A stretch of 21,251 nucleotides of DNA, taken from positions 1 through 21,251 of the forward strand of contig JALLAZ010000581.1 in the NCBI GenBank assembly GCA_036939755.1, in the 5' to 3' direction. The position numbers were made by a program, and so were the translations under genes. The stretch comes from Stephanodiscus triporus. Taxonomy: Eukaryota; Bacillariophyta; Thalassiosirophyceae; Thalassiosirales; Thalassiosiraceae. This document shows positions 648-21,251 of the stretch, piece by piece. The notes beneath the pieces were generated by a model. It was not told where the DNA came from, did no database searches, and saw only the letters and a program-made list of their open reading frames with translations. The stretch's first letter is position 1; every line of letters starts with the position of its first letter.

Positions 648-665
648 TCGCATTATATAATGCGA
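648..665. promoter_or_regulatory. Perfect 18-bp palindrome with a TATATAA core upstream of glyoxalase I
   Basis: TCGCATTATATAATGCGA reads identically on both strands. It lies 45-62 bp upstream of the glyoxalase ATG at 710. The half-site TCGCA recurs just downstream in ATATCGCATCGCAC (about 671-684). A TATA-box or factor-binding role is inferred from position and symmetry only. Confidence 0.35.
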
Positions 666-709
666 TAAGCATATCGCATCGCACACAGTAAGACCACTCT
701 AGTGTCAAG

Positions 710-1704: not shown

Positions 1705-1958
1705 TATGGGACGACGAGGTCGGCGAATGAGGCGAGGGAGACGAATCCTGTTGCATATGTCTACATAGTTGACTCGAAATCGCTCTTTGTGGCTACAAAA
1801 AAATATCATGTGCAATATAATTGTTGTTCTCTCGGAATACTTATCATGATCAGGCTTTTTATACACTTCTATATTTCCAAGTTTTTTGTTCATTGTAGGT
1901 ATCGGCTGGGGCAGAGTGAACTTAGGCCTCCTTAGAAAGTACTCCAGCATGATCTGTC

Positions 1959-2669: not shown

Positions 2670-2744
2670 CTATGCAGCATATTTTTATGTTTCTATGAAA
2701 TAAACAATGAGAAGAAAGCGAATTATGTGTTAACACACATGCAG

Positions 2745-2775
<31 letters not shown>
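2745..2775. repeat. (CAT)n microsatellite
   Basis: About ten uninterrupted CAT units in the intergenic region. Confidence 0.95.
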
Positions 2776-3120
2776 GTGGCAATATATCATACATACGATA
2801 TTGAATCAAAATTGGAATTTCCACCACCAAGTGAAAATACTCACGCCTTGCCATTCGAGTGTAAGTACCATCTGCTGATACAGGTACTTCCGTGAGTAAC
2901 ATACTTCCTCTGCCTCTGCCCCCTGCGCCCACTACTCATACCGTCACCGCCGGCATGGTGGCGCTTGTCAACCCACATCCGCCCCCATGACGGATTCCTA
3001 CCCGGACGATATCCGGCCCATGCTCGTTGGATATTTGACAAGGGTGTTGCTGGTCGGACAAAATTGGCACGTCCCTCCTCCTGGTGTCGTAGCACCTCGT
3101 CGACTAATACGACAACTAGG

Positions 3121-3176
<56 letters not shown>
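3121..3176. repeat. (ATC)n microsatellite
   Basis: About 18 uninterrupted ATC units. The tract produces artificial poly-Ile, poly-Ser, poly-Asp or poly-Met stretches in overlapping frames. Confidence 0.95.
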
Positions 3177-3731
3177 TGTCATCATTGCGCGACGAAGATT
3201 CAGGAGGTCGACGACCAATCTGTTGCCCGTGTTCGACGGCCACGTCCATCGCCGGACATGCCAACAAAAATACCGCCATTCGAACTAACGTTCCCGAAAA
3301 ATGTGCCCCCCGCGTTCGTCGATTTCCTCCACGGCCTCCCGCCTCCCTTCCTTATCCCGTGCATGATCGGACGATCGTCGGACGATGCGGGGCGTAGTAA
3401 CGATATACGTTTTATCCACTCGATGTCGTGCCCAATTGCGCGGCATCGTGCGGATGTGTGGCAATGCGAGGGTCGCGTTCCCTCGGGAAAAATGTCGTTC
3501 GTTGTCTGTGATGTTGTAAAAGGTGTAGAGGAGGGAGCAGGTGGCGAGCAGGTGGCGGGAAAGCCCCCCAGTCAGTCTGGCCTTTTCCCGTCAGACATAA
3601 AGAGACAAGGCACGCTTACGTACACGTGGAAGTAAAATGATGTGGAGAGATGTTGTGACGTTTTTTTCATGTCCCCGGGAACCCTCCGCCGGCCCGGCGG
3701 CACACACATCAACTTTTGAACCACTCTCTCG

Positions 3732-3735
<4 letters not shown>

Positions 3736-3768
<33 letters not shown>
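3736..3768. repeat. (GA)n tract in the 5' flank of the MFS transporter gene
   Basis: About 16 GA units, 60-92 bp before the ATG at 3828. A similar and longer tract lies just before the KUP start. Confidence 0.95.
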
Positions 3769-3771
<3 letters not shown>

Positions 3772-3827
3772 CTAGGTAGAGAGAACACAAACCCTCGCGG
3801 GGCGAGACACTTATATCGTAAAACAGC

Positions 3828-4767
3828 ATGCGAACGACATCGAGATTCTCGTCGTGGTCGTTGTCGTCGTCGTCGATGACTGGGGGGGGGAGAAATGTCC
3901 GCCGCCCATTCGCGCTCGTCTGCCTCCTGTGGCCTGCGGTCGTGGTCTCGGCCTTCGCGTCTTCGTCGTCCTCGTCGTCCTCGTCGTCCTCGTCGTATTC
4001 TTCTTCTCCTTCTCCTTCTTCTTCTTCTTCTCTCCTCCCCGCGACTACGACGATGACGAGGACGTTCCGCCCGCCGCGCGACGAGTACGACGACGACGAC
4101 AGGCATCGTCTCCCCCGCCGTCGTCTCGCGACGTCGACGACGACGAGGGGCCTCCACCTCTCCGTTCCCCGCGGCGGCGCGTCGATGTCGATGTCGATGT
4201 CGATGTCGTCGTCGACGTCGTCGTCGTCGTCGTCGATCGTCGCCGCGATCGCGTCCGGCGTGTCGTCGATGATCACCACCCCGACGGGCGCGTTCAACGC
4301 CGCCCTCGCGCTGTTGGGAATGTCCGCCGGGGCGATGAGGCTGTACGACGCGATCGAGAGGAGGGGGAGGGTCGGGGAAGAAGAAGGAGATGTGGACGTC
4401 GACGGGGGGGAGAAGATCGAGAAGCGGGGGGGGAAGGATCCGAGGGTCGTATCGCTTCAACGACGATTCCTCTCGGTCTTCTGGCTGTTGAGGATGGCCG
4501 ATTGGCTGCAGGTGAGAGAGAGACTGATAAAAAGATTACAAAGATTGGGAGGAGGAGTAGGCGGGGGGAGGGGGGCGAGAGAGATATCTTGACTACGGCG
4601 ATGCATCTATCGGGATGGGTCGGATAGATACTATTGATAGTGCGAGCGTGACGACGACTGCTCGGACTGTCGTCGTCAGGGAAAGGGGGCGAATTCGGCG
4701 AACGGGCATTACCCTCACTTCCCACGAACGCCCCGGAACGACGAACAAACTCCATCGTTACGCAATC

Positions 4768-4801
<34 letters not shown>

Positions 4802-6277
4802 GTTCGCTCGAATCTAATAACCCTCTCTCTCCTCCGTCTATCCATCACTCCATCTCTCTATCTCCTTCTCCGACAGGGACCTTACTTCTACCAGGTCTAC
4901 GCGTCCAAGAACTTCGGCGCGTCCGCGACGGCATCGTCCACGGCCGTCGCTTGGGTATCCCGACTCTTCCTCACGGGATTCGCGTCCACGGCCCTATTCG
5001 GTCCAATGGTCGGACGACTCTGCGACGCGTACGGTCGGAAGGCCGGGACGCTTGCCTTCTCGATATTGTACAGCCTCGGCGCGTGCAGCACGAAGAGCGA
5101 CGTCCTCGGATTGTTGATCCTCGGGCGCGTATTGGGGGGCATAGGCACGAGTTTGTTATTCAGCGCCCCGGAGGCGTGGCTGGTCGGGGAGGCGGGTAGG
5201 ACGGGCGTCGGATCGAGCCTCGGCGAGACGTTCGGCCTCGCTTACGCGGGCGATTCGATCGTGGCGATACTCGCCGGTCAGATGGCCGGGGCGGCGGCGT
5301 CGTCGCGCGGTCCCACGGGCCCGTTCGAGCTGTCGGTCGCGTTCCTGATGTTGGGAGGACTCCTGGCCTCGTTCCTTTGGAAGGAGAACGTCGCCGGCGG
5401 AGGAGGAGGGGTCGGCGGCGAGGGGGGAAACGACGGCGGTGCGAAGTCGAAGGGCGACGCCGACGTCGCGAAACCGACCATACGGGACGCCATCGGGGTC
5501 GTCAGATCGGATCCCAAGATCATGCTCGTCGGGGCCATCCAATCGATGTTCGAGGCCGCCATGTACATCTTCGTCCTGAATTGGCCCCCTGCCGTGAGCG
5601 GGGCCATCGAGTCGTACTTCTCGAAGTTCGCGACGGCGAATTCGTCGCGATCGGCGATCGGCACCCCCTACGGGACGGTCTTCTCGTGTTTCATGGCGTG
5701 CTGCCTCCTCGGATCGACGTTGTTCGGACGATTGACGTCATTGACTGGAAGGCCGGATGCGAGGACGGGGAAAGTCAGGAAGGCGATTACCACGGAGAGC
5801 TTCGCGGCGGGGATGTTGGCGTTGGCGACCACTGCCATGGGAGTCGCCACCTTGTCAATCGGCTCGTCCGCCCCGCCCATCTTCGTCACCATGTTGACGT
5901 CGCTCCCCATCCTATCTCCCGTCGCCGCACTATGCAGTAATGTATCTACGTTTCTGTCATCGCCCGGATCGATCCTGTCTGTGCTCATGCTCAGTCTGTT
6001 CCTATTCGAATCTTGCGTCGGCATGTACTTCCCGACGATTGGGACGCTACGATCTAAGTACTTCCCAGACAGCCACCGCAGCGTGGTGATGAATTTATTC
6101 GGCATACCACTGAATGTCATGGTCGTCACGGTATTCTTGAGCATAGAGAAGTTGGGGGTTCAGGGCGCCCTGGGGGTGAGCACCGCGGCCTTGGCAGTGG
6201 CAACGGCGTGTGGACTGAAGTTGAAGGGGTTGGTTGACGGGGCAGTCGAAGGGGAGAGGGGGAGAATCAAGGTGTAG
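3828..6277 (+). CDS. MFSD5: MFSD5/MOT2-type major-facilitator transporter, two exons
   Basis: Family members are described as molybdate-anion transporters. Exon 1 is 3828-4511 and exon 2 is 4877-6277; the 365-nt intron (GTGAGA...GACAG) separates RMADWLQ from GPYFYQVY, rejoining the family block. The product has 694 residues, longer than the roughly 450 usual, because of an N-terminal extension of about 200 residues. MFS motif A is seen as GRLCDAYGRK (residues 274-283), and the family-specific RVLGGIGTSLLFSAPEAWL at 312-330; further hydrophobic segments run to residue 690. The extension holds a signal-like segment (FALVCLLWPAVVVSAFA), Ser-rich runs from TCG repeats and an Asp/Glu-rich piece. 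The AF junction suggests plastid targeting, which is inferred. A second ATG at 3876 (Met17, MTGGG...) would give a more typical signal peptide. A GA microsatellite lies just upstream and a truncated inverted copy lies downstream. Confidence 0.88.
4771..4798. repeat. (CTAT)n tetranucleotide microsatellite in the MFS intron
   Basis: About seven CTAT units inside the 365-nt intron of the MFSD5-like gene, about 80 nt before its acceptor. Confidence 0.9.
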
Positions 6278-6376
6278 GGTTGTCTGAACACGATGTACTC
6301 TATTCGTGTAAAATTAGATTGCCTTGATTTCTAGCACTATTTAATATAATATTATTTAGACCAGGTTTTTAACTGC

Positions 6377-6637
6377 TTATGGACATGAGATAAAAAGTCG
6401 CCCGAACATGGGACCGAATAGGGCCGTGGATGCGAATCCCGTGAGGAAGAGGCGGGATACCCAAGCGACGGCCGTGGATGATGCCGTCGCGGACGCGGCG
6501 AAGTTCTTGGACGCGTAGACCTGATAGAAACAAGGTCCCTTTCAGAGAGGGCGATAGAGAGATAGAGAGACACATAAAGTAGAAAGAAAGATTAGAAAAA
6601 GGTTATTAGATTTGAGCGAACAAAAGGTAGACAGAAT

Positions 6638-6676
<39 letters not shown>

Positions 6677-7070
6677 GCTGTGTGAAGGGTTTCGTTCGAT
6701 TGCTGCGTTCCCCCTTTCCTTTACGACAGCGCACTCTCATTCTCATTCTCACGTCTCCACCCGTCCATCCCGATGTATCGCTGTTATCTAGATTTTCTCT
6801 CCGTCTCACTCACCTGCAGCCAATTGGCCATCCGCAACAACAAGAAGACCGCCAGGTAACGTCGCTGAAGCGATTTGACCCTCGGATCCTCCCCCCCCCC
6901 CTCATCGATCTTCTCGACATCGTCTTCCCCGACACCGCCACCGACCCCATCACACAGCCTCAGTGCCACGGCGAACGCGCATAATATCGCGAGGGCGGCG
7001 TCGAACACGCCATCGGGGGCGGACGCGATCGACGACTTAGACGTCGCTGCGACAACGACCGCAGTCGCGG
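6377..7070 (-). pseudogene. Truncated inverted partial copy of the MFSD5-like gene
   Basis: Minus-strand exon 1 copy, about 7070-6814: VFDAALAILCAFAVALRL, then DPRVKSLQRRYLAVFLLLRM and ANWLQ, followed by GTGAGTGAG. Exon 2 copy, 6538-6377: GPCFYQVYASKNFAASATAS, then STAVAWVSRLFLTGFASTAL and FGPMFGRL, after which homology stops and FISCP-stop follows. The parent breaks at the same WLQ|GP junction, so intron position is conserved (275 nt here; the acceptor is AAAG instead of ACAG). No ATG precedes the exon 1 homology: the frame is open back to a TAA near 7135 without a start, and the signal region is missing. Only about 54 of 466 exon 2 codons remain. It lies tail-to-tail about 100 bp behind its parent. 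Splicing still looks possible, so a short transcript cannot be excluded. Confidence 0.8.
6638..6676. repeat. (GA)n tract within the intron of the inverted MFS copy
   Basis: Interrupted GA repeat (one AAAG interruption). It has no obvious counterpart in the parent's intron, which has CTAT repeats instead. Confidence 0.9.
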
Positions 7071-7125
7071 CAGCGGCCTCCGCGCTCAGGACGATCTCGA
7101 GCTTCGGACGACGTATTTCGCTCGT

Positions 7126-7479
7126 ATGACATTAGCCGTTCATTAGGTTGGGTCGCTGCCTATGATATTGTAGTATGACGTGCACCGGCGACATTTCAAA
7201 GAAGATGTGTATTTATGAGCTGTGACTACTAAGGGCATCTCGCAATGGCATGAGCAGGTCGGAAAGCCGGAGAGAACTTCTTGCCTCATTCGTATCTATT
7301 TATTCCTACGTACCATATCTACTTACACTTATTGTCGACAAAAAAATTAAGAAATGAGAACTCCTCCACAATCTCTTATCTTTTTTCGTTGTGTCGTTGT
7401 CTTCACTGTGTCAACGCTTCGTATAATGGTGAAGCCGGATATCCGACCATTCTAGTAAGCATAACCATCTATAGAGAGC

Positions 7480-7482
<3 letters not shown>
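7126..7482. other. 5' flank of the KUP gene, no gene recognised
   Basis: AT-richer DNA than the MFS region. It holds no open frame of note besides one that runs into the GA tract and gives artificial Arg-Glu repeats. It probably contains the KUP promoter and 5' leader. Confidence 0.5.

Positions 7483-7538
<56 letters not shown>
7483..7538. repeat. (AG)n microsatellite immediately upstream of KUP
   Basis: About 28 AG units ending 20 bp before the KUP ATG at 7559, so it probably lies in the 5' leader or core promoter. Confidence 0.95.
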
Positions 7539-7541
<3 letters not shown>

Positions 7542-7558
7542 TAATCTCTCACAATATT

Positions 7559-10519
7559 ATGTCAAAAGGAAACAAAGTCGAGGACATCGATCCTTCCTTT
7601 GTCGCGCTAGAAAATGGTACCCTCCGCGAATTGACCGCCATGATGACCAAACAAACCAGTCGCGTGTCATTAACCATTGCGCGTCGTCGGCAGCTGTCGG
7701 CTTTTCCAGACGAATTCCTATTGCAGAATAGCAATAGCGCTACAACTACATCTTTTATTGGAGAACGCCCACGTGGAGCATCCACGAGGTCATCGCCGTG
7801 GAGTGGTGACGAAGGCGAAATCGGTGGCATTGATGGCAAGAAGAAGGGAAAGGCGGAATCATACAAGAACTTTGCGGTCTTGTTAGTGGGGGCGGTGGGC
7901 GTTGTATTTGGCGATATTGGAACCTCGCCACTGTACACGCTCAACACTGTCCTGGCAGACGTTCCCATCTTCCAGGGCGACGATCTTGAGACGGTAAATC
8001 GCTCGGAGGTCGTGGTGGCGGTGTATTGCCTCATTTTCTACAGCTTGGTTTGGGTAGTGTTGATCAAGTATGTGATATGGGTCATGAGGGTGAATCATCA
8101 TGGTGCGGGGGGGGAGCTGGCCATGGCTCAGGTCATTTTGGGTAGTATTTATCCTGTTCTTCCTCAGGGTGCTGTCGCGTATCCCATACCTCCACCCCCT
8201 TCTTCTTCTTTAACACAAGAGAAGACGGTGGCAGAGAAAAAGATGATGAAGAAGAAGAAGAACGAGCTACTTCGAAATGATAATCCTATCAACACCAACA
8301 ACGCTACTACCTCAGCACCTTCTCCTACTCAACGACGACACAGCCGTACCATCATGATTATTGCCATAACGTCCACCAGTTTTCTAATCGGCGATGGGAT
8401 AATCACGCCACCCAACACCGTATTGGGGGCCCTGTACTCCCCCGTATTGGAACATTTATCACCAAGCCTGAATGTCTTAATTAGCGTGTGTGTACTCATT
8501 CTCATTTTCAACGTACAGCGCTATGGCTCCAAGGCTATTGGATTAGTGAGCGGCCCGATCATGATATTGTGGTTTGCCACTCTAGCATTTTTGGGTTTGC
8601 TTACAATTGTGCGCTATCCCGAGGAGGCGCGATTTTTGGCTCGGGCCTTTAATCCAGCAAGTTTGACGGCCTTTTCTGGCACGGCAGGGACGAATCTGCC
8701 CACTGTGGGTTTCAAAAATGCATTTTTTTCTTTGGGGGGTGTCATATTGTGCATTACTGGCGGCGAGGCGTTGTATGCGGACCTGGGACATTTTGGGTAT
8801 CGGGCGATAATGGTAGCATGGTGCATTGTGGTGTTCCCAGCGTTGGCAGTACAATACTTTGGCCAGTGTTGTTATGTCATTTCGTTGGGACGGGATACTT
8901 CACTTTATCCTCCCTCAGACTACGAAACGGAAGAGTATCAAGCGTTATTACAAGAACGGAAATTGTTCAATACCCAGTTGATTACAGTTCCAGGAAATCT
9001 GGTGTATGCCCTCGTACCAACTGAAGCCATGTCTCACAGGCTCGGAGAGACTTGCCTGTGGCTGCTAACCATCATCGCCGTCCTGGCCTCGATTATTGCC
9101 TCTCAGGCTTTGATATCTGGGGTGTTCTCCATCCTTACTCAAGCATACGCCTTGGATTTGGCACCCCGCATGAACATATTTCACACAAATCCCAACGAGA
9201 AGGGACAGGTATTTATTTCCGAGGCCAATACCGTCATGTGCATTGCTTGCGTCCTAATTGTGCTTTTATTTCAGACCTCGGATAAGCTAACCGCCGCCTA
9301 CGGTATTGCAGTGGCAGTCTCTATGACCATCACTGACATTTTGATGGGCTATGTGATGTGCTGGGTGTGGAAATTCCATTGGATTGTGGCCATTATTGGC
9401 GCTCTGCCATTCGTTTTCGTGGATGGTCTCTTTCTGTCATCTAACTGCGTCAAGTTGGCAGAAGGCCCCAATAGCTGGACCAGCATCATCATCGCCGTCG
9501 TGGCGTGGTTTTGTATGTACTCCCACTGGTGGTCCCTTACCAACGTCAAGGAGGTGGCTCACCATAAGTCACAAAGAAGGGAAGAAGGGGGAGGAGGAGG
9601 AGGAGGAGAAGAAGAAGGAGGAGAAGAACGAGGAGAACGAGGAGAAGGAGGAGAAGGAGGAGAAGGAGAAGGATGTGGAGGAGGAGGAGGAGGAGGGATA
9701 ATGGATGATGACGATTCTACCCCAGTCCAAACTGGTTTGACGTCAACGGCAAAAAAGACAATGACGACAGACATTGATAATCTCCTGCGTCTGCTGAAAG
9801 AATCCAAGTTGTTGAAGCGTATGCCTGTTGCTGGCGTGTTTTTGGCGCATTACCCTAAAACCATCCCGCTCTGTCTAACTACCCTGGCGCGATCGATGGC
9901 AGCCCTTCCCGAAACCATCATTCTCTTGCACCTATCGTTTTCTCGTGACAAGCCATTTGTGGATGAATGTGAACGGTATGACCTATGCTGTCACAGCGAG
10001 GAATTGGGCGTTTTTAGTTTGAACATGTATTTTGGGTATTGTGAACCAATCACAGCGAATCATTTTGACATAACCAACTCTTTGAGGGAGATTTTTCAGG
10101 CCGAAGGCTATGTTGCCCTGCAGAAACTTACGGAGTTTCGAGGAGAATCCACACTTCTTACACTCTTCAATGAGAGTCAGGAAGATCTCTCTCAACATTT
10201 GTGGGATCATCACTGGACATACTTTGTGAGCTTACGAAAGTACATACCTCATGAGAAAGAAAATATCTTGGCCAAACTCTTAGTGAATATCTGCGATTTT
10301 TTAACAAGAAATTCCCTTTCCTCCAGAGATTTCTTCGGGCTATCCAGCATCGACACGATTGAAGTCAACTGCGTGACAATAATTCGCTCTAGGGATCATC
10401 CATCTGAAGAAAAAGAAATACCAGGAAAATCTGAACTATCGGGTGTGAAGTTAGAGGAGAAGGAAGCTGGAGAGCGTTGCGAGAAATATATTACTGATCC
10501 CAGTTTTGACGATAAGTAG
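7559..10519 (+). CDS. KUP: KUP/HAK/KT potassium uptake transporter, intronless
   Basis: Membrane K+ uptake system, thought to be H+-coupled. The single open frame gives 986 residues against roughly 620-800 in most relatives. Family blocks in order: GVVFGDIGTSPLYTLNTVL (residues 114-132), HHGAGGELAMAQ (about 180), SFLIGDGIITPPNTVLGAL near 275, GPIMILWFATLAFLGL near 335, and ITGGEALYADLGHFGYRA followed by VQYFGQCCYVI. About twelve hydrophobic segments end near residue 665, then the C-terminal cytosolic domain has MPVAGVFLAHYPKTIPLCL. The extra length comes from a polar N-terminus of about 100 residues, a Lys/Asn/Ser-rich insert near 203-262 between membrane segments, and a Gly/Glu-rich linker at about 672-715. 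The gene has no introns and looks less GC-rich than the MFS gene, compatible with ancient transfer from bacteria or simple intron loss; I cannot tell which. Confidence 0.95.
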   Translation: MSKGNKVEDIDPSFVALENGTLRELTAMMTKQTSRVSLTIARRRQLSAFPDEFLLQNSNSATTTSFIGERPRGASTRSSPWSGDEGEIGGIDGKKKGKAESYKNFAVLLVGAVGVVFGDIGTSPLYTLNTVLADVPIFQGDDLETVNRSEVVVAVYCLIFYSLVWVVLIKYVIWVMRVNHHGAGGELAMAQVILGSIYPVLPQGAVAYPIPPPPSSSLTQEKTVAEKKMMKKKKNELLRNDNPINTNNATTSAPSPTQRRHSRTIMIIAITSTSFLIGDGIITPPNTVLGALYSPVLEHLSPSLNVLISVCVLILIFNVQRYGSKAIGLVSGPIMILWFATLAFLGLLTIVRYPEEARFLARAFNPASLTAFSGTAGTNLPTVGFKNAFFSLGGVILCITGGEALYADLGHFGYRAIMVAWCIVVFPALAVQYFGQCCYVISLGRDTSLYPPSDYETEEYQALLQERKLFNTQLITVPGNLVYALVPTEAMSHRLGETCLWLLTIIAVLASIIASQALISGVFSILTQAYALDLAPRMNIFHTNPNEKGQVFISEANTVMCIACVLIVLLFQTSDKLTAAYGIAVAVSMTITDILMGYVMCWVWKFHWIVAIIGALPFVFVDGLFLSSNCVKLAEGPNSWTSIIIAVVAWFCMYSHWWSLTNVKEVAHHKSQRREEGGGGGGGEEEGGEERGERGEGGEGGEGEGCGGGGGGGIMDDDDSTPVQTGLTSTAKKTMTTDIDNLLRLLKESKLLKRMPVAGVFLAHYPKTIPLCLTTLARSMAALPETIILLHLSFSRDKPFVDECERYDLCCHSEELGVFSLNMYFGYCEPITANHFDITNSLREIFQAEGYVALQKLTEFRGESTLLTLFNESQEDLSQHLWDHHWTYFVSLRKYIPHEKENILAKLLVNICDFLTRNSLSSRDFFGLSSIDTIEVNCVTIIRSRDHPSEEKEIPGKSELSGVKLEEKEAGERCEKYITDPSFDDK

Positions 10520-10933
10520 ATTATGATAGTGGCACACTCTAATGTGTATAGGTAGCTCAATCAAGACATCTCAATGAGGTCTAGATATAATATTTCGGTT
10601 TGGAGATTTTTAGTCTGTACATTGTCTGATATGTTACATGGTTTGCTTATCTTTCGACTCTTCTAGGGATAAAGGACAGTGTGTGCTTACGGTAACTTGT
10701 TGCTGCGGCGTATAACAAATCCGGTGTTACTATCTTGGAATTCGACGGTGAGAGATCTTATCCCAAATGGAAGATTATTTCAATGAGAAACAAGTGCTAA
10801 TTATGGATTTTTTTGTTCCGCTTCTCTCTTCCTCTGGTGCCTTAGACAAATAAAACAAATGGGTCTCACACTTCGAATTGTTGGGCCTATTCTCTTGGCC
10901 CGTCGATTCACAGAAAAAGAGATGTGCTTGTTT
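10520..10933. other. Convergent 3' regions of KUP and neuroguidin
   Basis: AT-rich 3'-flanking DNA between two tail-to-tail genes. AAATAAAACAAAT near 10848 could serve as a polyadenylation signal for KUP. No coding sequence or RNA gene was recognised. Confidence 0.5.
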
Positions 10934-12648
10934 CTATTTCTTCTTCTTCGACATACCGCCACCACCGCCGCCGCCGCCGTCTCCGTACAAACTCTTTTGG
11001 TACGTGTTCGTAGCTCCGCCTTTCTTCTTCTTCCTCTTCTTGGAGCCATCGCCTCCCTCCAGGACGTCCACTCTGCGCTTTCTCATTCCCACCGTCTTGA
11101 ATGGCCCGCCCGCGCCATCGTTGTCCGCGCCGCTCCCCCTCCCATCCCTCGCCTCCCCATCCCTCCTCCTCGTCCCGCCTCCCCCGCCGAACGCATCGTC
11201 GACGCCCACCATCAAGCTCCCTAATCCCCCGGCGATCGCGCCCAAGTTGCTCATCTCCTCCCTCATCATTCGCTTGCGTTCCCCCCTCTCCTTCTTCCCC
11301 ATCGTCAGTCGTATCATCTGACGTTCCTCGAATTCGCGCACGTCGGCGTCCCTGGCGGCGATCCTGCGTGCCGACTCCGACTGCATCCCAAGGAGGGCGC
11401 CGCCGCGCGCGTCCTCCTCCTCGGGAGCGTCGGTGAACTGGGACCTCATCACGGCCGTTAGCTCGGAGCGGGATAGCCGATCGCGCTGCTTCTCTAGCTG
11501 ACGTCGTCGTTTCTGCATCGCGCGTTCGTTGTCGTCTATATCGAACGGCATCGACTGGAGACGGGGCGGCTGATAGACGTTGCTTCTGCCGTCGTTGGGT
11601 TGAGGGTCGTTGTCGTCCTTTTCCAGGGCGATCCTGGCCTTGTAAGATGACGACTTCCCTCCCCCTTCGTCGACGTTACTGTCGTCATCATCATCGCTGC
11701 CCTCGTATTTCGAATCGGCACCATTTGGCTGATAATAATTTGCGAATATAATATATTGGAATGAAAAATGAGAGACGCTAATATTGAACGATGAAAAATT
11801 TCATCCTTCGCCCCCCACTAACATAAATGAGTCGAACCGTCACTCTCTGTCTCTCTCTCTCTCTCCCCCTCGTCACTCACCCCATTATTTCCATCCTCCT
11901 CCTCCTCCTCCACGAACATTTTCATCATCCCCTCCAGGTCGGGTTTGAATGACAGCGGATCGACTCCATCGTCCGCGATTTTCGTCGTCTCATCCTTGTC
12001 ATTTGCCACCTCCTCCTCCCTGCCCATGGCGGCGAACGTCCCCGCGCCCCCTCCCAGGGTGGACAGCGCCAGAAGCTTGTCTATCTGGTACCTCATCTTC
12101 TTCTCGAGCGGTCGCATCCTCTCGAGCGCGACCTTCATCTCCAGGAGGCGATCCAGGCATTCATGTCGCCGTCGTCGTCGTTGTTGTTGATGTGCTTGCC
12201 GTCTCCTCATCTCCTCCCTTCGTCCCTCCCCCGCTCCGTCGCCGTCTTCCGTCGGAGGAGGAGGAGGAGGAGAAGAAGGGGAAGGAGACAGACGATGACG
12301 CAGCAGCATCGTCAGGTCGACGAGGTAGCTGATCGTCATCGCGTTCTTGACCCTGAGGTAGTCCACCACGATGCCCTCGCCGTCGCCGGCGACGTCCCTC
12401 CTCTTCCTTCCGTCGTCGCCTCCGCCGCCGCCGCTCCTCCCCCCACGACCATCGTCGTCGTCGGCGGTGGCGGCGCGTCGATGGCGCGCCAGCGTCCGAC
12501 GGAGCGATTCGGACGCGACGGAGTTGGCCTTGGATAGGTGCGACGCGAGCGTCGAGGTTTTGGACGACCGGCCTCCTCCCGCGGGATCGGAAGGCGTTGT
12601 TGTTTCGGATGTCATGGCGTTGTGCGCCTTAATTATATTTTTTCTCAT
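10934..12648 (-). CDS. NGDN: Neuroguidin/Lcp5-like Sas10/Utp3/C1D-family protein, two exons
   Basis: Family members (yeast Lcp5, animal neuroguidin) act in small-subunit processome assembly and 18S rRNA maturation in the nucleolus. Exon 1 is 12648-11881 and exon 2 is 11728-10934; the intron is 152 nt (GTGAGT...ATCAG, phase 0). The product has 520 residues. The Sas10/C1D domain is split: YLRVKNAMTISYLVDLTMLL (97-116), then a Pro/Arg-rich insert, then LLEMKVALERMRPLEKKMRY (168-187), QIDKLL and DPLSFKPDLEGMM (230-242). The C-terminal family block follows: VYQPPRLQSMPFD (307-319), Arg/Lys-rich helices, RSQFTDAPEEE, EERQMIRLTMGKKERGERKR and a basic KKRKKKK tail. The ATG at 12615 is an alternative start and would remove 11 residues (MRKNIIKAHNA). 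Reading through the donor adds VSDEGERERE and a stop soon after. Confidence 0.88.
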
Positions 12649-13455
12649 CGTTCTTGTGGAATTCTGTGGCTCTCAAAGCAGCAGCTATCGTAGCTCGCCA
12701 GATAAAACCCGGCGGGACCCTTCTCAGCCCGAATCTTACGAGTTTAGGGGGTATCGCACCCATATCTGCATACCAGGTAGGTTCTGTCACCTAACTACCT
12801 AGCGGTAGGTAGGTGACAGGAAACTACCAGTCACCTACCTACCGCTAGGTAGTTAGGTGACGGTACCTACCCACGTACGCAGATATGGGTGGGGGTATCG
12901 TACGATATCATATTATTTTTTTGTTGGAGCCGTGTTGAAAATAGGAAAACGAATATGCCATTCAAATTGCCCGTAGACGTAGGAATAAGTAGTGAACTGA
13001 GAAAACCACTTGTACGAAGGCTCAGGCTTTCTTGTGATCTAAGTACAAGGCTGCGTGACAATAAGCCTGTGTGTTCTACTTACGGTAGGTGAAAAAAATA
13101 AATAATACCTAGAGGTATTAGGTATGGTACACGCACCTGGCTGGGGGGTCGCGGCACGGGTTCCTACGCGGTGTGACATTAGACATTACTCTACATTATT
13201 CCGAGAGAAGAGAAAAGAATGAGCGCGCAAAATAATAGGAGTACACCAAAATCGAAATTCCAACTCGCTACACAAGAGGCAAAAATGCTCCTCCACCATA
13301 AATTCTAAATAATTCAGTACGTATCGGTCTCCGCCATTGGTGAGATCTTCTGACCGTGCATTCTCATTACCACAGGGAAGAAAGGCTACAATAATCTACA
13401 TCGCCTTCTTCGACTATTGTTATTCGATTCATCCAAACAATAAAATACCGCCAAT
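12649..13455. promoter_or_regulatory. Divergent intergenic region between neuroguidin and the GH gene
   Basis: About 800 bp that must hold the promoters of both outward-facing genes. No coding sequence was recognised. It contains the large nested hairpin described separately, and a second imperfect palindrome, AATACCTAGAGGTATT, near 13106 that shares the ACCTA/TAGGT words of the hairpin. No convincing TATA box is seen before 13456. Confidence 0.45.
12757..12891. repeat. Large nested inverted repeat (foldback / cruciform)
   Basis: 12786-12817 and 12830-12861 are perfect 32-bp reverse complements around a 12-bp loop. Imperfect complementarity continues outward to CACCCATATCTGC (12757-12769), matched by GCAGATATGGGTG (12879-12891). 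Each 32-bp arm is itself nearly self-complementary, starting GTCACCTA and ending TAGGTGAC. It lies about 110 bp upstream of the neuroguidin start. It could be a small foldback/MITE-like element or a structured regulatory site. Confidence 0.85.
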
Positions 13456-15507
13456 ATGAGACTTTCATCGGCCTTCATCTTCCTTGTCGCCACGATCAGC
13501 TGTGACCCCGTTGCCGTCACTTGCGCCGTTGGAGGTGAAATTGACTACCTAGAGGCCACCTCTGATTTTGTCGAGGCTGATGTTGTTGGCGGTGGAATCG
13601 ACGATGTAGAGGCCACGTCTTACCCTGTCGAGACTGGGGCCAACGGAGGTGCATACGGCGTCTCTGATGCCAGTGTCGGGGCTGTGGCTGATATATTTGC
13701 TGACTCGCTTAGAATTTCGACTGCAACTGTCGTCATGGGGCCCAACATGCTCCATAAACAAATTATTTGCGGTTATCAGGGGTGGTTCGGATTTCCGGGG
13801 GATGGCGCTCCTATAAACAGATGGAGGCATTGGTTCCGTGGCAACCTCGCTGCTCCTACGTACGACAATGTCACCGTTGATATGTATCCCACGACCGACG
13901 AATACGATGTTGATGACTTGAAACAATCTGGCGTATTGATGCAGGATGGAAGCTACGCAAAATTCTTCTCCAGTGCAAGATACAAGGTCGTGTTGAAACA
14001 TTTTCAGTGGATGGCAACCTACGGTGTTACTGGAGTGTTTCACCATAGATTCATGAATAACTGGCAAGACACCGCATTGCATAATACAAGAACAATGGTT
14101 TTACGGAACGTGATGAGAGCGGCAAAAGAAACGGGACGAGTGTTTGCTGTGTCATATGATATAGCAGGAACTGGCAACGATGTCATCGAAAGTCTTAAGA
14201 ACGATTGGATGATGCTTGTAGACAAGGAGAATATTACGAACAATAGCAATTACATTCGACAGAAAGGATTTCCCGTATTACACATCTATGGGATAGGATT
14301 CACATCTGTCCTGGTTGACGACACGATCGGGATGCAAAATCTTATCAACTGGCTAAAATCAGACACTAAGTATAGAGCGTTTGTTCTAGGTGGGGTTGCA
14401 GGAAAGTGGCGCACTCAAACTGGTGATTCCAGGTCAGGAGAAGGATGGAAGAATATTTACAATTCTTTGGACGGAATCCACGCTTGGCACGTGGGAAGAT
14501 GGAATAACTTAGCTGGGTTCAACACATATTACTCGGATAATATTGGAGGCGACGCTGCATATTGTAAGACGAGGGGGATCCTGTACATACCTACCATGTG
14601 GCCGGGTTTCAGTTGGCACAACCTCAAAAGTACATCCATCCCACAACCAGCAATCAACTCCATTCCCCGAGATGGCGGAAATTTCATGTGGAAAATGGCG
14701 CACAAATATGTGGCCAATAGTAACATCACTACTATTTGGTGTGCTCAATTCGATGAAGTGGATGAAGGCACTGCAATCTTCAAAGTCACCGCGATGGCGA
14801 ACAGCCTTCCCCGTCCGCAGAGTGGTTGGTTGGCCTTGGATGCCGATGGCCACTCTTTGCCCTCGGATTGGTACCTTCGTTTGACCGGCGAAGCGCAATT
14901 GATGTTGGAGGGAAAGCGTGCATTAACGAGCACAATCCTACTTGACCCCAGCGCCCCGTGGGTCCCATATACCTCAAGCCCAACTAGAAATCCGACATCA
15001 CTTAAGCCAACATCCCTTAAGCCAACATCACTTAAGCCAACATCACTTAAGCCAACATCACTTAAGCCGACGTCACTTAAGCCGACGTCACTTAAACCAA
15101 CATCACTTAAGCCGACATCCCTTAAGCCAACATCACTTAAGCCAACATCCCTTAAGCCAACATCACTTAAGCCAACATCCCTTAAGCCAACATCACCTAA
15201 GCCAACATCACTTAAGCCAACATCCCTTAAGCCAACATCACTTATGCCATCATCCCTTAAGCCAACATCACTTAAGCCGACGTCACTTAAGCCAACATCC
15301 CTTAAGCCAACATCATTTAAGCCAGCATCACTTAAGCCGACATCACTCAAGCCAACATCAAAGCCTACTTTTAGCCCCACACGACGTCCCACTCGAAGTC
15401 CCACTCGACGTCCCACTCGACGTCCCACTCGACGTCCCACTCCACATCCCACTCGAAGTCCCACTCGACCACCCACTCAACGTCCAACGCTGAAGCCGAT
15501 TGTCTAG
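13456..15507 (+). CDS. Secreted GH71/GH99-like glycoside hydrolase with LKPTS repeat tail
   Basis: 683 residues, no intron. Residues 1-24 form a signal peptide (MRLSSAFIFLVATISC...). Residues 26-64 contain a tandem duplication, GGEIDYLEATSDFVEADVV then GGGIDDVEATSYPVETGAN. The enzyme-like domain at about 95-490 has GYQGWFGFPGDG (106-117), HFQWMATYGVTGVFHHRF, GRVFAVSYDIAGTG and QFDEVDEGTAIF (431-442). These are blocks I associate with GH71/GH99-like (endo-mannanase or 'xylosidase') proteins; acidic residues in the last block are candidate catalytic ones. Substrate is unknown. From about residue 513 there are some 24 Leu-Lys-Pro-Thr-Ser units, then RPTRRPT/SPTRSPT to the end, a basic O-glycosylatable linker or wall-binding tail as in diatom surface proteins. 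ATG 13456 is the only start giving a signal peptide. AATAAA near 15569 is a likely polyadenylation signal. Confidence 0.82.
   Translation: MRLSSAFIFLVATISCDPVAVTCAVGGEIDYLEATSDFVEADVVGGGIDDVEATSYPVETGANGGAYGVSDASVGAVADIFADSLRISTATVVMGPNMLHKQIICGYQGWFGFPGDGAPINRWRHWFRGNLAAPTYDNVTVDMYPTTDEYDVDDLKQSGVLMQDGSYAKFFSSARYKVVLKHFQWMATYGVTGVFHHRFMNNWQDTALHNTRTMVLRNVMRAAKETGRVFAVSYDIAGTGNDVIESLKNDWMMLVDKENITNNSNYIRQKGFPVLHIYGIGFTSVLVDDTIGMQNLINWLKSDTKYRAFVLGGVAGKWRTQTGDSRSGEGWKNIYNSLDGIHAWHVGRWNNLAGFNTYYSDNIGGDAAYCKTRGILYIPTMWPGFSWHNLKSTSIPQPAINSIPRDGGNFMWKMAHKYVANSNITTIWCAQFDEVDEGTAIFKVTAMANSLPRPQSGWLALDADGHSLPSDWYLRLTGEAQLMLEGKRALTSTILLDPSAPWVPYTSSPTRNPTSLKPTSLKPTSLKPTSLKPTSLKPTSLKPTSLKPTSLKPTSLKPTSLKPTSLKPTSLKPTSLKPTSPKPTSLKPTSLKPTSLMPSSLKPTSLKPTSLKPTSLKPTSFKPASLKPTSLKPTSKPTFSPTRRPTRSPTRRPTRRPTRRPTPHPTRSPTRPPTQRPTLKPIV
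14996..15360 (+). repeat. 15-bp tandem repeat array encoding LKPTS
   Basis: About 24 in-frame copies of CTTAAGCCAACATCA with sporadic third-position changes (CCGACGTCA, CATCCC) and a few replacements (Met, Phe, Pro or Ala variants). A 12-bp RPTR-type array (CGTCCCACTCGA) follows directly to about 15480. Confidence 0.97.
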
Positions 15508-16174
15508 CGTCGTCTAAGGTATTTATACATGTTGGGAGAGAAAGTTTCATGTCAGTTCACTTTCACTCAATAAAGTTCTCTTGATTGATTTTCCAACCTT
15601 GGGCATCCAGAGAGCCCTTAACTCCTCCTCGCGTTATCAAATTATATCGTCTAGCGGTTTCATATCTTTCTTATGGTTGCAGCTTGTGGGAATGAGAAAG
15701 ACCGGTATCTCAAGCAAAAAGGCTTTGTCTCCTTCATAGATATTGAGCAAAGAGTCCACTGGCTTAAAGTTTACTCGGACAGAATTGAAGTTGATGCACT
15801 CAGAGTCAAATTATTCAAGTCAAACGCGTTGAAGGAGTCGCCAATGACAAATGAATCAAAGTCGAGTTTTTCGCTTGAGCTATACCCCGCATACGTGGTA
15901 TGTGTGCCAGCGGAAGCACAAAGCACATCGTTCTTGTCAGTCCTATCAATGGTACGGGGGTGTTTGACAATCCGCCCAGTTTGGTGGGCATTTCGAAAGA
16001 GCGTAGCGCATCGAAAGGGGGGCGACATTCGCACGGGAGCCAGCACATGCGCAAAGTTCACACATGTACAATTGGAGTTAATATTGTCGCATTGGCAAAA
16101 ATGTGCATAATATTTAGAAAGTAAATGTACTTCAAACATCTCCTTGTCATTCCTCTCTCGTCCAATCCTTTGGA
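15508..16174. other. Intergenic stretch, convergent 3' ends; possible relic
   Basis: Lies between two converging genes. A plus-strand open frame at 15673-16110 (145 codons) and an opposing minus-strand frame at 16139-15771 (122 codons) are present. Neither matches a family I know, shows a signal peptide or has codon usage like the neighbours. A decayed gene or mobile-element fragment is possible, but I see no diagnostic motif. Confidence 0.4.
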
Positions 16175-17770
16175 TTACCCCTCCAAATCGACCTTATCCA
16201 CAACCGGGTAGGACCAGTACTCCTCGTCCAGGAATATCGTATTGGCATCAAAGACTTCATCGGTCGTACCGTCGAGGATGATCTCCTTGATGTCGTCGAA
16301 GTGATGCAACAGTACCTGCTTGAAGAAGGGATCGCCGGTGACGTCGCCCTCGAACTCGCTGGCGTCGACGTCGTAGAACTCGTCGTCCTGCTCGACGCGC
16401 AGGAACAGCGCGGGCCCGACGGTGTCGTGAAGCTTCCACCAAGCGATGTAGCAGTAGGAATAAGCCGGGCAGTTCGGATCGTCGTTGCAGTTTGGGGCGA
16501 GGAAGTTGGTGTCGATGGGAGCGTCGTGTATGCAGCAGAACGCTGGTTTGCAGGCGTTGAGACACTCGCGGAACGATCCGTTTGCGCGATCGTACTTGTT
16601 GCAGAGCGATTGGAGGTTGTCGGGGGCGCATGGAACAGCGCCGTCGCTCACGTTGTCGCAGTCGCCCTTGGCATATTCATACCCGTCGAAGACGTCTCCG
16701 TCGACGTTGTTGGTTGATCCTCCTCCAACCCCCCCGCCTCCCTCCTCTTGTTCTTCATTCATTTCTTCTCCCTCGTCAACTTCCTCGTCAACCTCCTCGT
16801 CAACTTCCTCGTCAACTTCCTCGTCAACTTCCTCGTCAACTTCCTCGTCAACTTCCTGGTCAACTTCCTCGTCGACTTCCTCGTCGTCGCCTCCCTCTTC
16901 CGCTTGAAGACGTCGACGAATCATCCGCGACGACGTCCGACGGAGGTATGGCGACGCTCCCCCCGCGGCATCGCCCGCCGTCGTCATCGACGTCTTCGTA
17001 TTCGTCATCATCGTCGTCCACGTCGTCGTCGTCGTCGTCATCGCCGCCGCCGCGCCGTCCAGCGTGTCGTCGGCCCTCCCGCCGTAGTCGTCCTCGTCCT
17101 CGTCGACGATCTTCGTTGCGACCCCGTCCAGCGCGTCGTCCATCATGCCGTCGTAGACGTCGTATTCGTTCCGGTCGGCGATATTCGCGGCGCGATCGGG
17201 AACGGGGCCGGTATCTACAACGACGACGACGCGTTCGACAGTCGACGTTGACGACGAGACGGCGGTCCTGGCGTATTCGTCCCTACGACTATCCCAGTCG
17301 ATGCGATGTCCCAGTTTAGCGATGGCGTAGGCCATCCTCGCCAGACTCAGCCTCTGGTGGGGAGGTCGTAACGATGATTAAAAATAAGGCGGGTGGGGAT
17401 GGGTTGGTGGGGGGAAGGGGAATGGGAGGCGAGGTGAGGGGCGTTCGGCACGTCATGGCATCGTCCTCGCGGCGTTCATTTTTTTTTTTTGCCTCGCGGC
17501 TGACGACGCGACTCGGGCGTATCGTAAAAAAATATATGTATAATATATACAACTCACCTCGTCGTCGGAGAAGGACGACAGGTCGTAAAAGTTTCGGAAA
17601 ATTCGATCGTCGTTGTCGTCGTCGTCGTCGATGACCGATACGCTCGTCGGTCTTCCGACGCCGTCCGTCCCCCCCGACGTCGCGACGGTCGACGACGTCA
17701 TCGTCATCGCGTTAAGCAGGAAGGACAACAGCGGGATCAGTGCGGGGCGACGACATCGACGACGGACCAT
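16175..17770 (-). CDS. Secreted acidic (EEVD)n-repeat protein with a Cys-rich diatom-type domain, two exons
   Basis: Exon 1 is 17770-17558 and exon 2 is 17353-16175; the 204-nt intron (GTGAGT...ACCAG, phase 0) joins SSFSDDE to RLSLARMAYAIAKLG. The product has 463 residues. Exon 1 starts with a basic n-region and a hydrophobic core (ALIPLLSFLLNAM), a probable signal peptide. A frame-identical ATG at 17806 would add MEGYLLTNLFSI. The middle is low-complexity: Asp-rich, then a Met/Thr run from CGT-type repeats, then about ten EEVD units at roughly residues 225-270. The C-terminal part has spaced cysteines: LCNKYDRANGSFRECLNACK, PAFCCIHDAP, NCPAYSYCYIAWWKLHDTVG. I recall similar Cys-rich domains in diatom secreted proteins but know no function. 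The acidic repeats could bind cations or basic partners; this is inference. It is transcribed divergently from the Lys-cluster protein at 18477. Confidence 0.72.
16771..16886 (-). repeat. 12-bp tandem repeat encoding EEVD
   Basis: About nine full copies plus a partial of CCTCGTCAACTT (plus-strand reading). One copy has CCTGG (giving Gln) and the last ones carry CGTCGACTT. Confidence 0.95.
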
Positions 17771-18476
17771 GATAGAGAATAAGTTAGTGAGTAAGTAACC
17801 TTCCACTTGTCGGTTTTTTTTTTAATTTTTTGCAGGAGGATATGGGTGGGAATCGCTTCCGGGCGGAGGTTGTGTCCGTCCGTCCGGGGGGTCGGTTGCC
17901 GGTGTGCGGTCTGTTCGCGAGGATGATGTTGGAAACGGACGATCATTGTTCCGGTCCCGAGGATGGATGATGGTGCCACGAGAGCGAGAGGAGGGATGGA
18001 AGTGGCTCTACATACACTTCTACACCCATGCACTTACCTTCGTAGGAATTAGATCATTGTGGCTTTCCACTAGCGTAGGAATCAAATAAATTTTGGGCAA
18101 ACCAAATATTTGAATTCGTACGAATTCCTCTATTTTCTTTTGTTTTTCTGTTCGGGACGAGACCTGAATATCTCTCGACGAATAAAAAATGCCGCAGGCG
18201 TGAACGGCCTTTTTCCGTCATCTCTACACAACACCATCGAGAAGCGTGGGAAAGCAAACACTGGAATACATTCTTCGATAATATAATCGAGTCCTCCGGG
18301 CATACAACATTCCCATTCGTTCGAGAGAGCCGCCCGAAAGGGGAAAGAGGGGGTCGGGGAATCGTAGGCTTCAATTATCATTCGCGCTATAGAAAATTCG
18401 AAATCCCAAATATTCGTATTCCGGTACATTTCGATATATTGAGAGCGTATAATACGACGAAAAAAAAAAAACCACC
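17771..18476. promoter_or_regulatory. Shared divergent promoter region of two secreted-protein genes
   Basis: About 700 bp between two head-to-head start codons. Seen: a perfect 16-bp palindrome GAATTCGTACGAATTC at 18112-18127; a minus-strand consensus donor GAAG|GTAAGT near 18033, which could belong to a 5'-UTR intron of the acidic gene; and a plus-strand T-tract ending GCAG near 17835. Minus-strand frames at 18130-18606 have no recognisable content. No TATA box is clear. Confidence 0.4.
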
Positions 18477-18522
18477 ATGGCGACATTGAAGCGGATGGCC
18501 ATGGCGGCGGTGATCCTGGCCG

Positions 18523-18556
<34 letters not shown>

Positions 18557-20968
18557 CGCGACCGCCGCGACGACGGCCCGGGAACGTGATCGGTCGGGGG
18601 CGGCAAGACGTCCGCCGATGGTCAAGGGCGGAGGCGGCGGCGCATCCGCCGCCGCGGAACGCGAGCTGAAGAATCCCGGCCTGGTGCCGATACGCGGGTC
18701 GCGAAAATGGAACGCGGATCGAAACGGCGACGGCGACGGCGACGGCGAACGCGACGGCGTGGGCGGGGGGGGGGATGGGACGAGAAAGGAGGGACTGGCG
18801 AACGGCGGAGGAAGGGGCGCTACTGGCGGCAAGAGATTATTCTATGGCGGAAACAGACTGAAGAACGTCGTCGGGTCGAGGTGGCGGCACAACGGCAAGT
18901 CGTCCAAGGGCAAGTCGTCCAAAAAGTATCGCGGCTGGTATTACGACGACGAGTGTTACGATATCGATATATACGATCCGCAAATTGATGAATACGATCC
19001 GTGAGTTGTGTATGGCTTAATTGATTTTCGATCGCGTCCATCTCCTCTTTTCCTCTTGGGTCGTCATTTTATTAGCGCGGCGCAATTGTAACTTCCGAGG
19101 AACTGATATTTTTTTTCCCTGCTAACGGCCATCCCTTTCGGATCTCTTTCCAGGACGATCTCTCCTACTATGTCTCCGACTCAAAGTCCGTGAGTTGTTA
19201 GCGTATGTGTATTTTCTGTGTTCAAATGATTCTCCGTATGTGAAACGAGAGAATCACGAATGATTACCTTCGAGATGAGAGGTTGGTTACGCTCGAAATC
19301 ATCGTACGGCTCATCAATCAAACACCCTGTTTTCATCTTTCACAGCGACGGTGGAACCGTGCCTACGGTGAGAAAATTTGAACTGTGATTGCACGGCCAT
19401 GTTGTTACTGGGGAAGCGAGTTAACTCAACAACCCCACTTCCGGATACATCTCGCGTTCTTCACTCGAATAATACCGATTTTCGTAGGATCCAACAATTA
19501 GTCCAACTTTGTCGCCGTGAGTTCGTGTTCCTCCCTAGTGTCTCACGTTGATGTGAACAACATCTAACAAAGATCGGGCGTCATTGGACTTTTTTTGCGT
19601 TACTCGGTACAGGACGCTATCGCCGACTGTGTCCCCGACTAAGTCTCCGTGAGTGCAATTCATGATAGTATGCGTGCCGCCTCAAGTGCTATGTGCCCGG
19701 CATATATTTTAGTAAAAAGGGAAGAATTTTCACCTTGTTTTATTCTGCATATTCATAATCATGATTCTACAGGTTTTCGAACCCTGATCAAGACCCAACA
19801 TTGAGTCCGACTTTGTCGCCGTAAGATCATGGCTATTTCATTTCTTTGACATGTTATTTTTGTGCGAGATCTAATTGAGTTCATTATTTCGCGTTACCCG
19901 ATCAGGACAACCCCAACTTTGTCCACGTGAGTGTGATTTGTATGCAACTGCATCGATTGTGTGTGTCTGGCGTAGATTTTTCGCCTCATGTTTACAATTC
20001 TTTTTTGTTCGCATTAATAATGATGGCAAAGTACGTTGTCGCCAACCCAATCCCCAACGTTGTCACCGTGAGTACGACTCCCAACAGATGCATTTGCTAT
20101 GTGTGCACAATATTGATATAAGACTAACTGTTTTTCCACCTCTTTCTACACAATTACAGAACCGCATCCCCAACTTTGTCACCGTGAGTGTGATTCATGA
20201 TAACGCACATTCAACTCAATTGCTTTCATATGAAAAGCTGTTTCTGCCTACTATGTGCCTTTTTCCTAACTGACAAAATTTTACCAATCAATATTTGTGT
20301 AGGTCATTGAGTCCAACACTACCACCAACACTACCTGAAACGCTATCACCAACGCTATCACCAACACTACCACCAACACTTTCACCAACACTTTCACCAA
20401 CACTATCACCATCACTATCACCAACACGAAGACCAACACGACGACCCATGTAAGTTTTGAACAATTCCAGTCTTGCGTGCGAATCATCGTACGTGCTAAG
20501 AAATATCTCACTTGTGAAATCGTGTCTTTTTTTCTTATCGACATTGCTTCGATGCGTAGACAAAAATCACTTACCAATACAGTTCTCACAAATGGCACAA
20601 GTCTACGCGATGGCCTGTTGAATAACAGTCGAGATACATTCAAAGACAACGATGATGTATTCGTCTGGAAAGAGAATGAGGATAGTGAAACTGCGAGTAG
20701 AAGATTATTTGAAGGAGATGCTTCAGGATCAGTTGCAGGAGATGGAGATAAAGATGATGAAACAGTAGATGAAGAGGAGAGAAGATTAGATGGCCACTGG
20801 AAGTATTGGGGTGAGGAGGATCAATTGATGGGAAAGGCAGGAAAAACAAGAAAAGGAAGACCTGGCAAATCAAAGTCAAGTAAGAAATGTCTCAATAAGT
20901 GGAATAGAAGGCCACCATCAGCACAAGGAGGAGCGAATCGGAAAGTAGGGGGTCGTGGGGGGGCATAA
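18477..20968 (+). CDS. Secreted Lys-cluster (silaffin-like) protein with a mini-exon-encoded PTLSP linker, eleven exons
   Basis: Exons: 18477-19000, 19154-19189, 19346-19367, 19488-19516, 19613-19648, 19773-19820, 19906-19926, 20032-20067, 20160-20183, 20303-20449 and 20560-20968. Together they make 1332 nt, one frame, 443 residues. All introns are GT-AG, 85-156 nt, with GTGAGT-like donors. Residues 1-25 form a probable signal peptide; there follow a Gly/Arg/Asp region, KSSKGKSSKK at 141-150 and an Asp/Tyr-rich end (WYYDDECYDIDIYDP). Residues 175-308 are a Pro/Thr/Ser linker of PTLSP-type units, closing with RRPTRRP. The last exon encodes an acidic stretch, then a second basic cluster (GKAGKTRKGRPGKSKSSKKC at 400-419). 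KxxK clusters recall silaffins, which template silica when their lysines are modified; a wall role is inferred. The exon 8 acceptor (GCAAAG) is the weakest splice call. No family name is known to me. Confidence 0.78.
19154..20449 (+). other. Array of nine small exons (exons 2-10) encoding the repeat linker
   Basis: Exon lengths are 36, 22, 29, 36, 48, 21, 36, 24 and 147 nt. Seven of the nine start and end in phase 2, so each is frame-neutral. The 22-nt and 29-nt exons are neutral only as a pair (51 nt). Most junctions split a proline codon as CC|G. Confidence 0.8.
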
Positions 20969-21171
20969 ATGAAAAAAAACAGCATGTCATCAAACAGCCA
21001 GTCTGAGACACCCAATAAGTTCATCAGTTGCATGTAGTTTATTCATAAAACATAATCAATAATATGAAGCCAGTGTGGGTGGCTGTCAAAATTTGCTTAA
21101 ATCATTTAAACCGGATTTAGACCGGAATAAATTGGGTCTAAACCTGGTCTAGCTACAAAATAAAATAAAAT
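20969..21171. other. 3' flank with TTTAGACC-type repeats
   Basis: AT-rich DNA after the stop codon, with AATAAGTTC near 21013 as a possible polyadenylation signal. From about 21107, TTTAGACCGGAATAAAT is followed by GGGTCTAAACC (an inverted copy of the core). TTTAGACCAGAATAAAT recurs at about 21203-21219. Confidence 0.5.
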
Positions 21172-21201
21172 TTATTCGGGGTGTCCGGACACCCCGAATA
21201 A
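21172..21201. repeat. Perfect 30-bp palindrome without spacer
   Basis: TTATTCGGGGTGTCC is followed directly by its exact reverse complement. The match extends a few bases further with one unpaired base. It is flanked on both sides by TTTAGACC/AATAAA repeats, giving it the look of a foldback element end. Confidence 0.9.
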
Positions 21202-21251
21202 AATTTAGACCAGAATAAATATTTAGACCAGTCAATTTCATGTCCGGATCC

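Follow-up and report, generated by a model that had tools for sequence, protein, structure and literature searches.

The gene at positions 18477-20968 (+ strand) of the window, by which we mean the whole 21,251-nucleotide stretch of Stephanodiscus triporus DNA analysed here, probably encodes a secreted silaffin-like (SFLP-type) cell-wall protein, to judge from its sequence features and, for the role in silica, from its motifs. Proteins of this type are already known; it is the structure of the gene that looks unusual, the linker between the two Lys-rich ends of the protein being divided into a run of eight mini-exons followed by one longer repeat exon. The best joint explanation, which we hold to be rather likely, is a silaffin-like wall protein with duplicated phase-2 mini-exons, an expansion in exon 10 (E10) and mostly constitutive splicing. 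That the host is a diatom is supported by the same assembly, which contains a silicon transporter (PF03842, E = 8.9e-228) as well as 27 matches to chlorophyll-binding proteins.

The preliminary description of this DNA had joined eleven exons, separated by ten introns, into one frame of 1332 nt. This was borne out: the introns are of the GT..AG type, and the frame, which codes for 443 aa, has a single stop at its end. The exons and the introns discussed below are as follows.

18477-19000, + strand: exon 1, 524 nt; splits a Pro codon at its 3' end (CC/G); contains an apparent signal peptide, a Gly/Asp/Arg-rich region, an RXL site, the N-terminal Lys cluster and a YYDDEC segment
19154-19189, + strand: exon 2, 36 nt, phase 2-2, PTISPTMSPTQSP
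19346-19367, + strand: exon 3, 22 nt, phase 2-0, PDGGTVPT, not symmetric
19488-19516, + strand: exon 4, 29 nt, phase 0-2, DPTISPTLSP
19613-19648, + strand: exon 5, 36 nt, phase 2-2, PTLSPTVSPTKSP
19649-19772, + strand: intron 5, its head like that of intron 9
19773-19820, + strand: exon 6, 48 nt, phase 2-2, PFSNPDQDPTLSPTLSP
19906-19926, + strand: exon 7, 21 nt, phase 2-2, PTTPTLST
20032-20067, + strand: exon 8, 36 nt, phase 2-2, TTLSPTQSPTLSP; weak acceptor, AAG
20160-20183, + strand: exon 9, 24 nt, phase 2-2, PTASPTLSP
20184-20302, + strand: intron 9, its head like that of intron 5
20303-20449, + strand: exon 10, 147 nt, phase 2-2; 12-nt tandem repeat CCAACACTATCA coding for P-T-L-S; ends in PTRRPTRRP
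20450-20559, + strand: intron 10, acceptor ATGCGTAG
20560-20968, + strand: exon 11, 409 nt; conserved C-terminal domain with DDVFVWK, two RRL sites, HWKYWG, a Lys cluster and KSSKKC

All ten introns (85-156 nt) have a GTRAG donor and contain an in-frame stop; the acceptor is CAG or TAG in nine of them and AAG in intron 7. Nine are in phase 2 (binomial probability of at least nine of ten in one given phase, 3.6e-4), and intron 3 is in phase 0. The internal exons had been said to be nearly all symmetric in phase 2 and to encode P-T-x-S-P units. The symmetry was found for seven of the nine, E3 and E4 being asymmetric singly and symmetric together as a 51-nt pair, and E3 does not contain such a unit. 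In agreement with the preliminary description, the frame is retained when E2 or any of E5-E10 is skipped singly, or when the 22-nt and 29-nt exons (E3 and E4) are skipped jointly; skipping of E3 alone or E4 alone leads to an early stop. An alternative TAG acceptor of E4, ending at 19501, would yield a 15-nt symmetric exon (19502-19516). E2-E9 make up 252 of the 1332 coding nt and E10 another 147, and the GC content of third codon positions shifts along the gene, from 0.76 in E1 to 0.50 in E2-E9, 0.08 in E10 and 0.30 in E11.

By a criterion that was chosen after the gene had been seen, and which takes E4 in its 15-nt form (19502-19516) and omits E6, seven non-overlapping phase-2-symmetric P/T/S-rich stretches lie between AG and GTRAG in the region 18991-20600. 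When the region was shuffled 500 times by dinucleotides, the same count had a mean of 0.002 and a maximum of 1, and no such stretch was found on either strand of positions 1-18400 of the window, which contain another PT-repeat gene.

Support for the gene model, and for the two ends with their Lys clusters, came from homologous proteins that align on either side of the linker. Of 7995 candidates scored in a protein search, 400 matched at E <= 0.001, and 120 of these were listed. Three of the 12 sequences that were compared (P0001, P0004 and P0006) match both ends of the protein, whereas the others apparently have only the PT repeat in common with it. The segments GLVPIRG, GKSS..YY..EC, DD.VFVWK, EERRL, W.YWG and KSSK.C are common to the ends of the window protein and of these three homologues, and the same three proteins were found among 58 candidates when the C-terminal domain of P0004 was the query. 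Identity to P0001 is 94% for P0004, 96% for P0006 and 48% for the window protein. The lengths of linker and C-terminal domain, respectively, are 153 and 137 aa in P0001, 156 and 137 aa in P0004, and 119 and 136 aa in P0006. P0006 can be aligned as P0001 minus exactly two units (22 + 12 = 34 aa), and P0004 differs from P0001 by units in the last part of the linker. This suggests, from comparison of the sequences, that the length of the linker can change by evolution alone, through whole units.

With the last exon as the query, three open reading frames (ORFs) were obtained among 3557 candidates. P0121 (163 aa, 93% identical to exon 11) starts within intron 10; P0122 (151 aa, 61% identical) aligns from the ATG contained in the intron 10 acceptor of the window gene, ATGCGTAG; P0123 (142 aa, 51% identical) aligns from the same acceptor ATG, with two extra residues following. 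The last-exon ORF of one close relative thus reads into intron 10 and two more begin at or near its acceptor, which adds to the support for the gene model, and these closer relatives appear therefore to retain intron 10. P0001, P0004 and P0006 are each listed as a single protein including the linker, from which the P0001-type lineage may lack introns. P0001 is listed as one whole protein, its contig being 31,033 bases long, and one of its two sources (ena) is the source of P0123, which is a last-exon-only ORF. If P0001 was called in the same manner as P0123, it would be an orthologue that has no introns.

It is possible, though we think it the less probable case, that the model is wrong in part, with E3, E8 and perhaps E7 unused, or with E4 starting after the acceptor that ends at 19501; such an error would be compatible with any of the readings discussed below. 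The AAG acceptor of E8, the small size of E3 (22 nt) together with its non-PT sequence, and the 15-nt symmetric alternative of E4 speak for it. They have to be set against the single frame that runs across the full chain, and against the homologues, which have a GDDEPTISP segment at the place where E3 and E4 encode GGTVPTDPTISP.

The assignment of the protein to the silaffin-like group is based on the following features.

18495-18527, + strand: hydrophobic N-terminal core, likely signal peptide (residues 7-17; Kyte-Doolittle mean 2.46 over 11 residues)
18660-18668, + strand: RXL site REL (residues 62-64)
18897-18926, + strand: N-terminal Lys cluster KSSKGKSSKK, with two KSSK motifs
20699-20707, + strand: RXL site RRL (residues 355-357)
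20780-20788, + strand: RXL site RRL (residues 382-384)
20834-20887, + strand: C-terminal pentalysine cluster KAGKTRKGRPGKSKSSKK, starting at residue 400

Silaffin-like and KXXK proteins of Thalassiosira pseudonana were screened for by KSSK-type (KXXK), pentalysine and RXL motifs (PMC5501833). By the criterion of that paper, KSSK motifs occur three times here, at residues 141, 146 and 413, with one residue between the first two. The C-terminal cluster is a pentalysine cluster in the strict sense (five non-consecutive lysines in 12-14 residues); the N-terminal KSSKGKSSKK, where a count by eye gives five lysines within ten residues and the final two are adjacent, is absent from the pentalysine list produced by the script. 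There are three RXL sites of the kind taken as protease sites and 29 P-T or P-S pairs in the protein. Brembu et al. 2017 (PMC5501833) reported that the SFLPs and KXXK proteins with PT repeats number 14, TpSIL1 among them; the same source describes such repeats in many silicon-responsive diatom proteins and their function as poorly understood. According to PMC9650480, pentalysine clusters play a part in directing proteins to the frustule. By analogy with known silaffin-like proteins, the Lys clusters would target the protein to silica or bind silica, and the RXL sites would permit processing. The flexible P-T-x-S-P linker, which may be hydroxylated or glycosylated, would connect the two Lys-cluster ends. 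Exons 1 and 11 gave no family match in Pfam at 1e-3.

Like the SFLPs and KXXK proteins of T. pseudonana, the window protein unites PT repeats with KXXK motifs, a pentalysine cluster and RXL sites, and its hydrophobic N terminus may be a signal peptide. The likeness rests on motifs, and the difference is that here the PT linker is divided into mini-exons; in the main text of the T. pseudonana SFLP paper (PMC5501833) the strings intron, exon and splic do not occur.

Several of the mini-exons resemble each other. E2 and E5, with their splice sites included, are 75% identical over 52 nt, E4 and the 3' part of E6 are 83% identical over 40 nt with the donor included, and E7 and E9 are 90% identical over 31 nt, also with the donor. 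Because of these three likenesses the sequences suggest that a block consisting of a 36-nt exon and an exon of roughly 50 nt was doubled, although the encoded repeat may partly account for the similarity. The heads of introns 5 and 9 are identical in 11 of the 13 nt that follow GTGAGT, with p = 0.006, all pairs and all prefix lengths being taken into account, in a test that was run after the pair had been noticed. In the earlier comparison of intron heads, of a fixed length of 30 nt, the same pair was the best (p = 0.088) and the p value for the mean was 0.22; the intron tails showed no significant similarity (p = 0.11). Similarity of whole introns was rejected as proof of recent duplication: in local alignment three of the 45 pairs were at p < 0.05, and the mean z was about 0. 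The Leu codon TTG is used in seven of eight cases in E2-E9 versus one of ten in E10 (Fisher p = 0.003), and because of this difference in codon use we think that E10 was expanded separately.

We infer from these similarities that the array probably arose by old tandem duplications of exon and intron, to which a separate repeat expansion in E10 was added. A repeat exon in the ancestor would have been duplicated in tandem several times, together with its phase-2 intron, and the last repeat exon, E10, would then have been enlarged by tandem expansion of 12 nt. The linker would be spread over phase-2 mini-exons because the repeat exon was duplicated together with its intron. Splicing would be mostly constitutive, probably with one form, and the exon layout would be a trace of the growth of the linker. 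Changes in linker length would come about chiefly in the course of evolution, as whole units are gained or lost. Intron 3, which is in phase 0, does not fit a simple duplication.

In an opposite scenario the ancestor was a repeat gene without introns, into which introns were inserted repeatedly at one kind of repeat site (..TCNCC/GTGAG.., the slash marking the border). We regard this as unlikely. It would accommodate the phase of intron 3 and the fact that the introns are mostly dissimilar, and it would agree with the single-protein listings of P0001, P0004 and P0006, with the P0001 contig of 31,033 bases and with the ena source that P0001 shares with P0123. However, it requires about ten gains as compared with one loss event, it leaves the duplicated-looking exon borders and the like heads of introns 5 and 9 to be explained, and the uninterrupted P0001 ORF is itself deduced from the listing. 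If P0001, P0004 and P0006 are indeed without introns, intron gain in the window lineage is also possible.

The preliminary description likened the array to a built-in length tuner. In such a tuner, regulated skipping of symmetric mini-exons would produce many linker lengths, as in the micro-exon genes (MEGs) of schistosomes or in the PEVK region of titin. Seven single exons and the E3-E4 pair can be removed in frame, giving 256 combinations and 84 linker lengths from 0 to 133 aa, and both the weak AAG acceptor of E8 and the second in-frame acceptor of E4 would suit such regulation. Some skipping would not be surprising, since exon skipping was reported in about 20% of Phaeodactylum tricornutum genes (PMC5859163). 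Nevertheless, duplication alone already yields phase symmetry, and no spliced form of the window gene, of whatever isoform, is among the 120 listed of the 400 protein matches. The linkers of the homologues vary by whole units, perhaps without introns, and such unit-wise variation without exons weakens the idea of a tuner, which seems improbable to us.

The two systems named above are parallels in layout. Schistosome MEGs share with the window gene a run of short symmetric exons and a secreted product, which is likely here, but in MEGs about 80% of the coding region consists of exons of 6-36 bp, and protein variants are proven (PMC5825161). The exons of the window gene are 21-147 nt long and occupy part of the coding region, so that its share of symmetric 6-36 bp exons falls short of the MEG figure of about 80%; it has no known variants, and we claim no homology. 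Titin PEVK, an unrelated protein, shares the flexible Pro-rich linker and a set of short repeated exons enlarged through exon duplication, and differs in its 74-109 PEVK exons in mammals, its known isoforms and its mechanical role (PMC6469411). PT disordered repeat proteins (PF04886) have the same type of repeat and are frequent among the protein matches listed, some of them from named diatoms. They are present in this genome too, where the other loci examined were without a PT mini-exon run under the criteria of our survey.

The layout had been thought to be without a described parallel in diatoms. Among the matches listed in the diatom and silaffin literature there was indeed no diatom gene of this kind, which is not proof of its absence, but within the genome the layout is not unique. 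A second gene model (C143; 678 aa, Lys-rich and PT-tailed) has exons of 1436, 57, 69, 444 and 31 nt at 7156-4696 on the minus strand. Four phase-2 introns lie in its PT linker, three of them split a Pro codon, and all have in-frame stops. Genome-wide, the pattern of P-T-x-S-P followed by a donor was found at 11 sites, six of them in the window gene, and at six in the reversed control; by number the other five sites are thus at chance level, and one of these five falls in C143. A narrower form of the pattern had three sites, all in the window gene, and none in the control.

The PF04886 survey of the genome gave 66 matches, with 150 of 158 candidates scored, and 30 of the 66 were made into loci (14 contigs, about 1.5 kb of flank per side). 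No further PT mini-exon run was found at these 30 loci or in the neighbour gene at 13456-15507, under criteria that recognise six of the seven symmetric exons of the window gene (E9 was missed) and, in C143, the 69-nt exon and not the 57-nt one. C143 is missing from the 66 matches, therefore the survey is incomplete and may have missed other such genes. When this genome was searched for paralogues of exon 11 and of the whole gene, the gene itself was the single match in either case. Of 10 pattern matches in viral contigs and 28 in prokaryote contigs, none was confirmed as homologous DNA.

The neighbour gene at 13456-15507 (+ strand) is an intron-free ORF of 683 aa. Its product is probably secreted and has a long tail, (KPTSL)n, encoded by 24.4 copies of a 15-nt unit. 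Its body resembles glycoside hydrolases by eye only, and a comparison with solved structures gave no match. On the minus strand, an ORF with an apparent signal peptide (17453-17806) precedes an ORF (16175-17335) for an acidic protein that has (DEEV)n repeats and an RRL site; both are head-to-head with the mini-exon gene. Together with the gene at 13456 there are three genes for repeat-bearing, apparently secreted proteins consecutively. NCBIfam gave nothing useful for the neighbour genes or for P0004. Near the end of the window, at 21166-21207, there is a near-perfect palindrome of 42 nt (21-nt arms, 95% complementary, no spacer), which may be part of a mobile element.

A diatom counterpart of the micro-exon genes, that is, a small family of silaffin-like genes with PT linkers in phase-2 mini-exons in which splicing sets the spacing of the Lys clusters, is something to which we give little credence; if true, the spacing of silica-binding Lys clusters set by splicing would influence wall patterning.

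The in-frame exon units and the homologues that vary by whole units offer a natural series for testing the effects of linker length. The gene also raises the question of how introns were gained or lost, and exons duplicated, in a group that is intron-poor in the members studied, P. tricornutum having 0.7 introns per gene according to PMC5859163.
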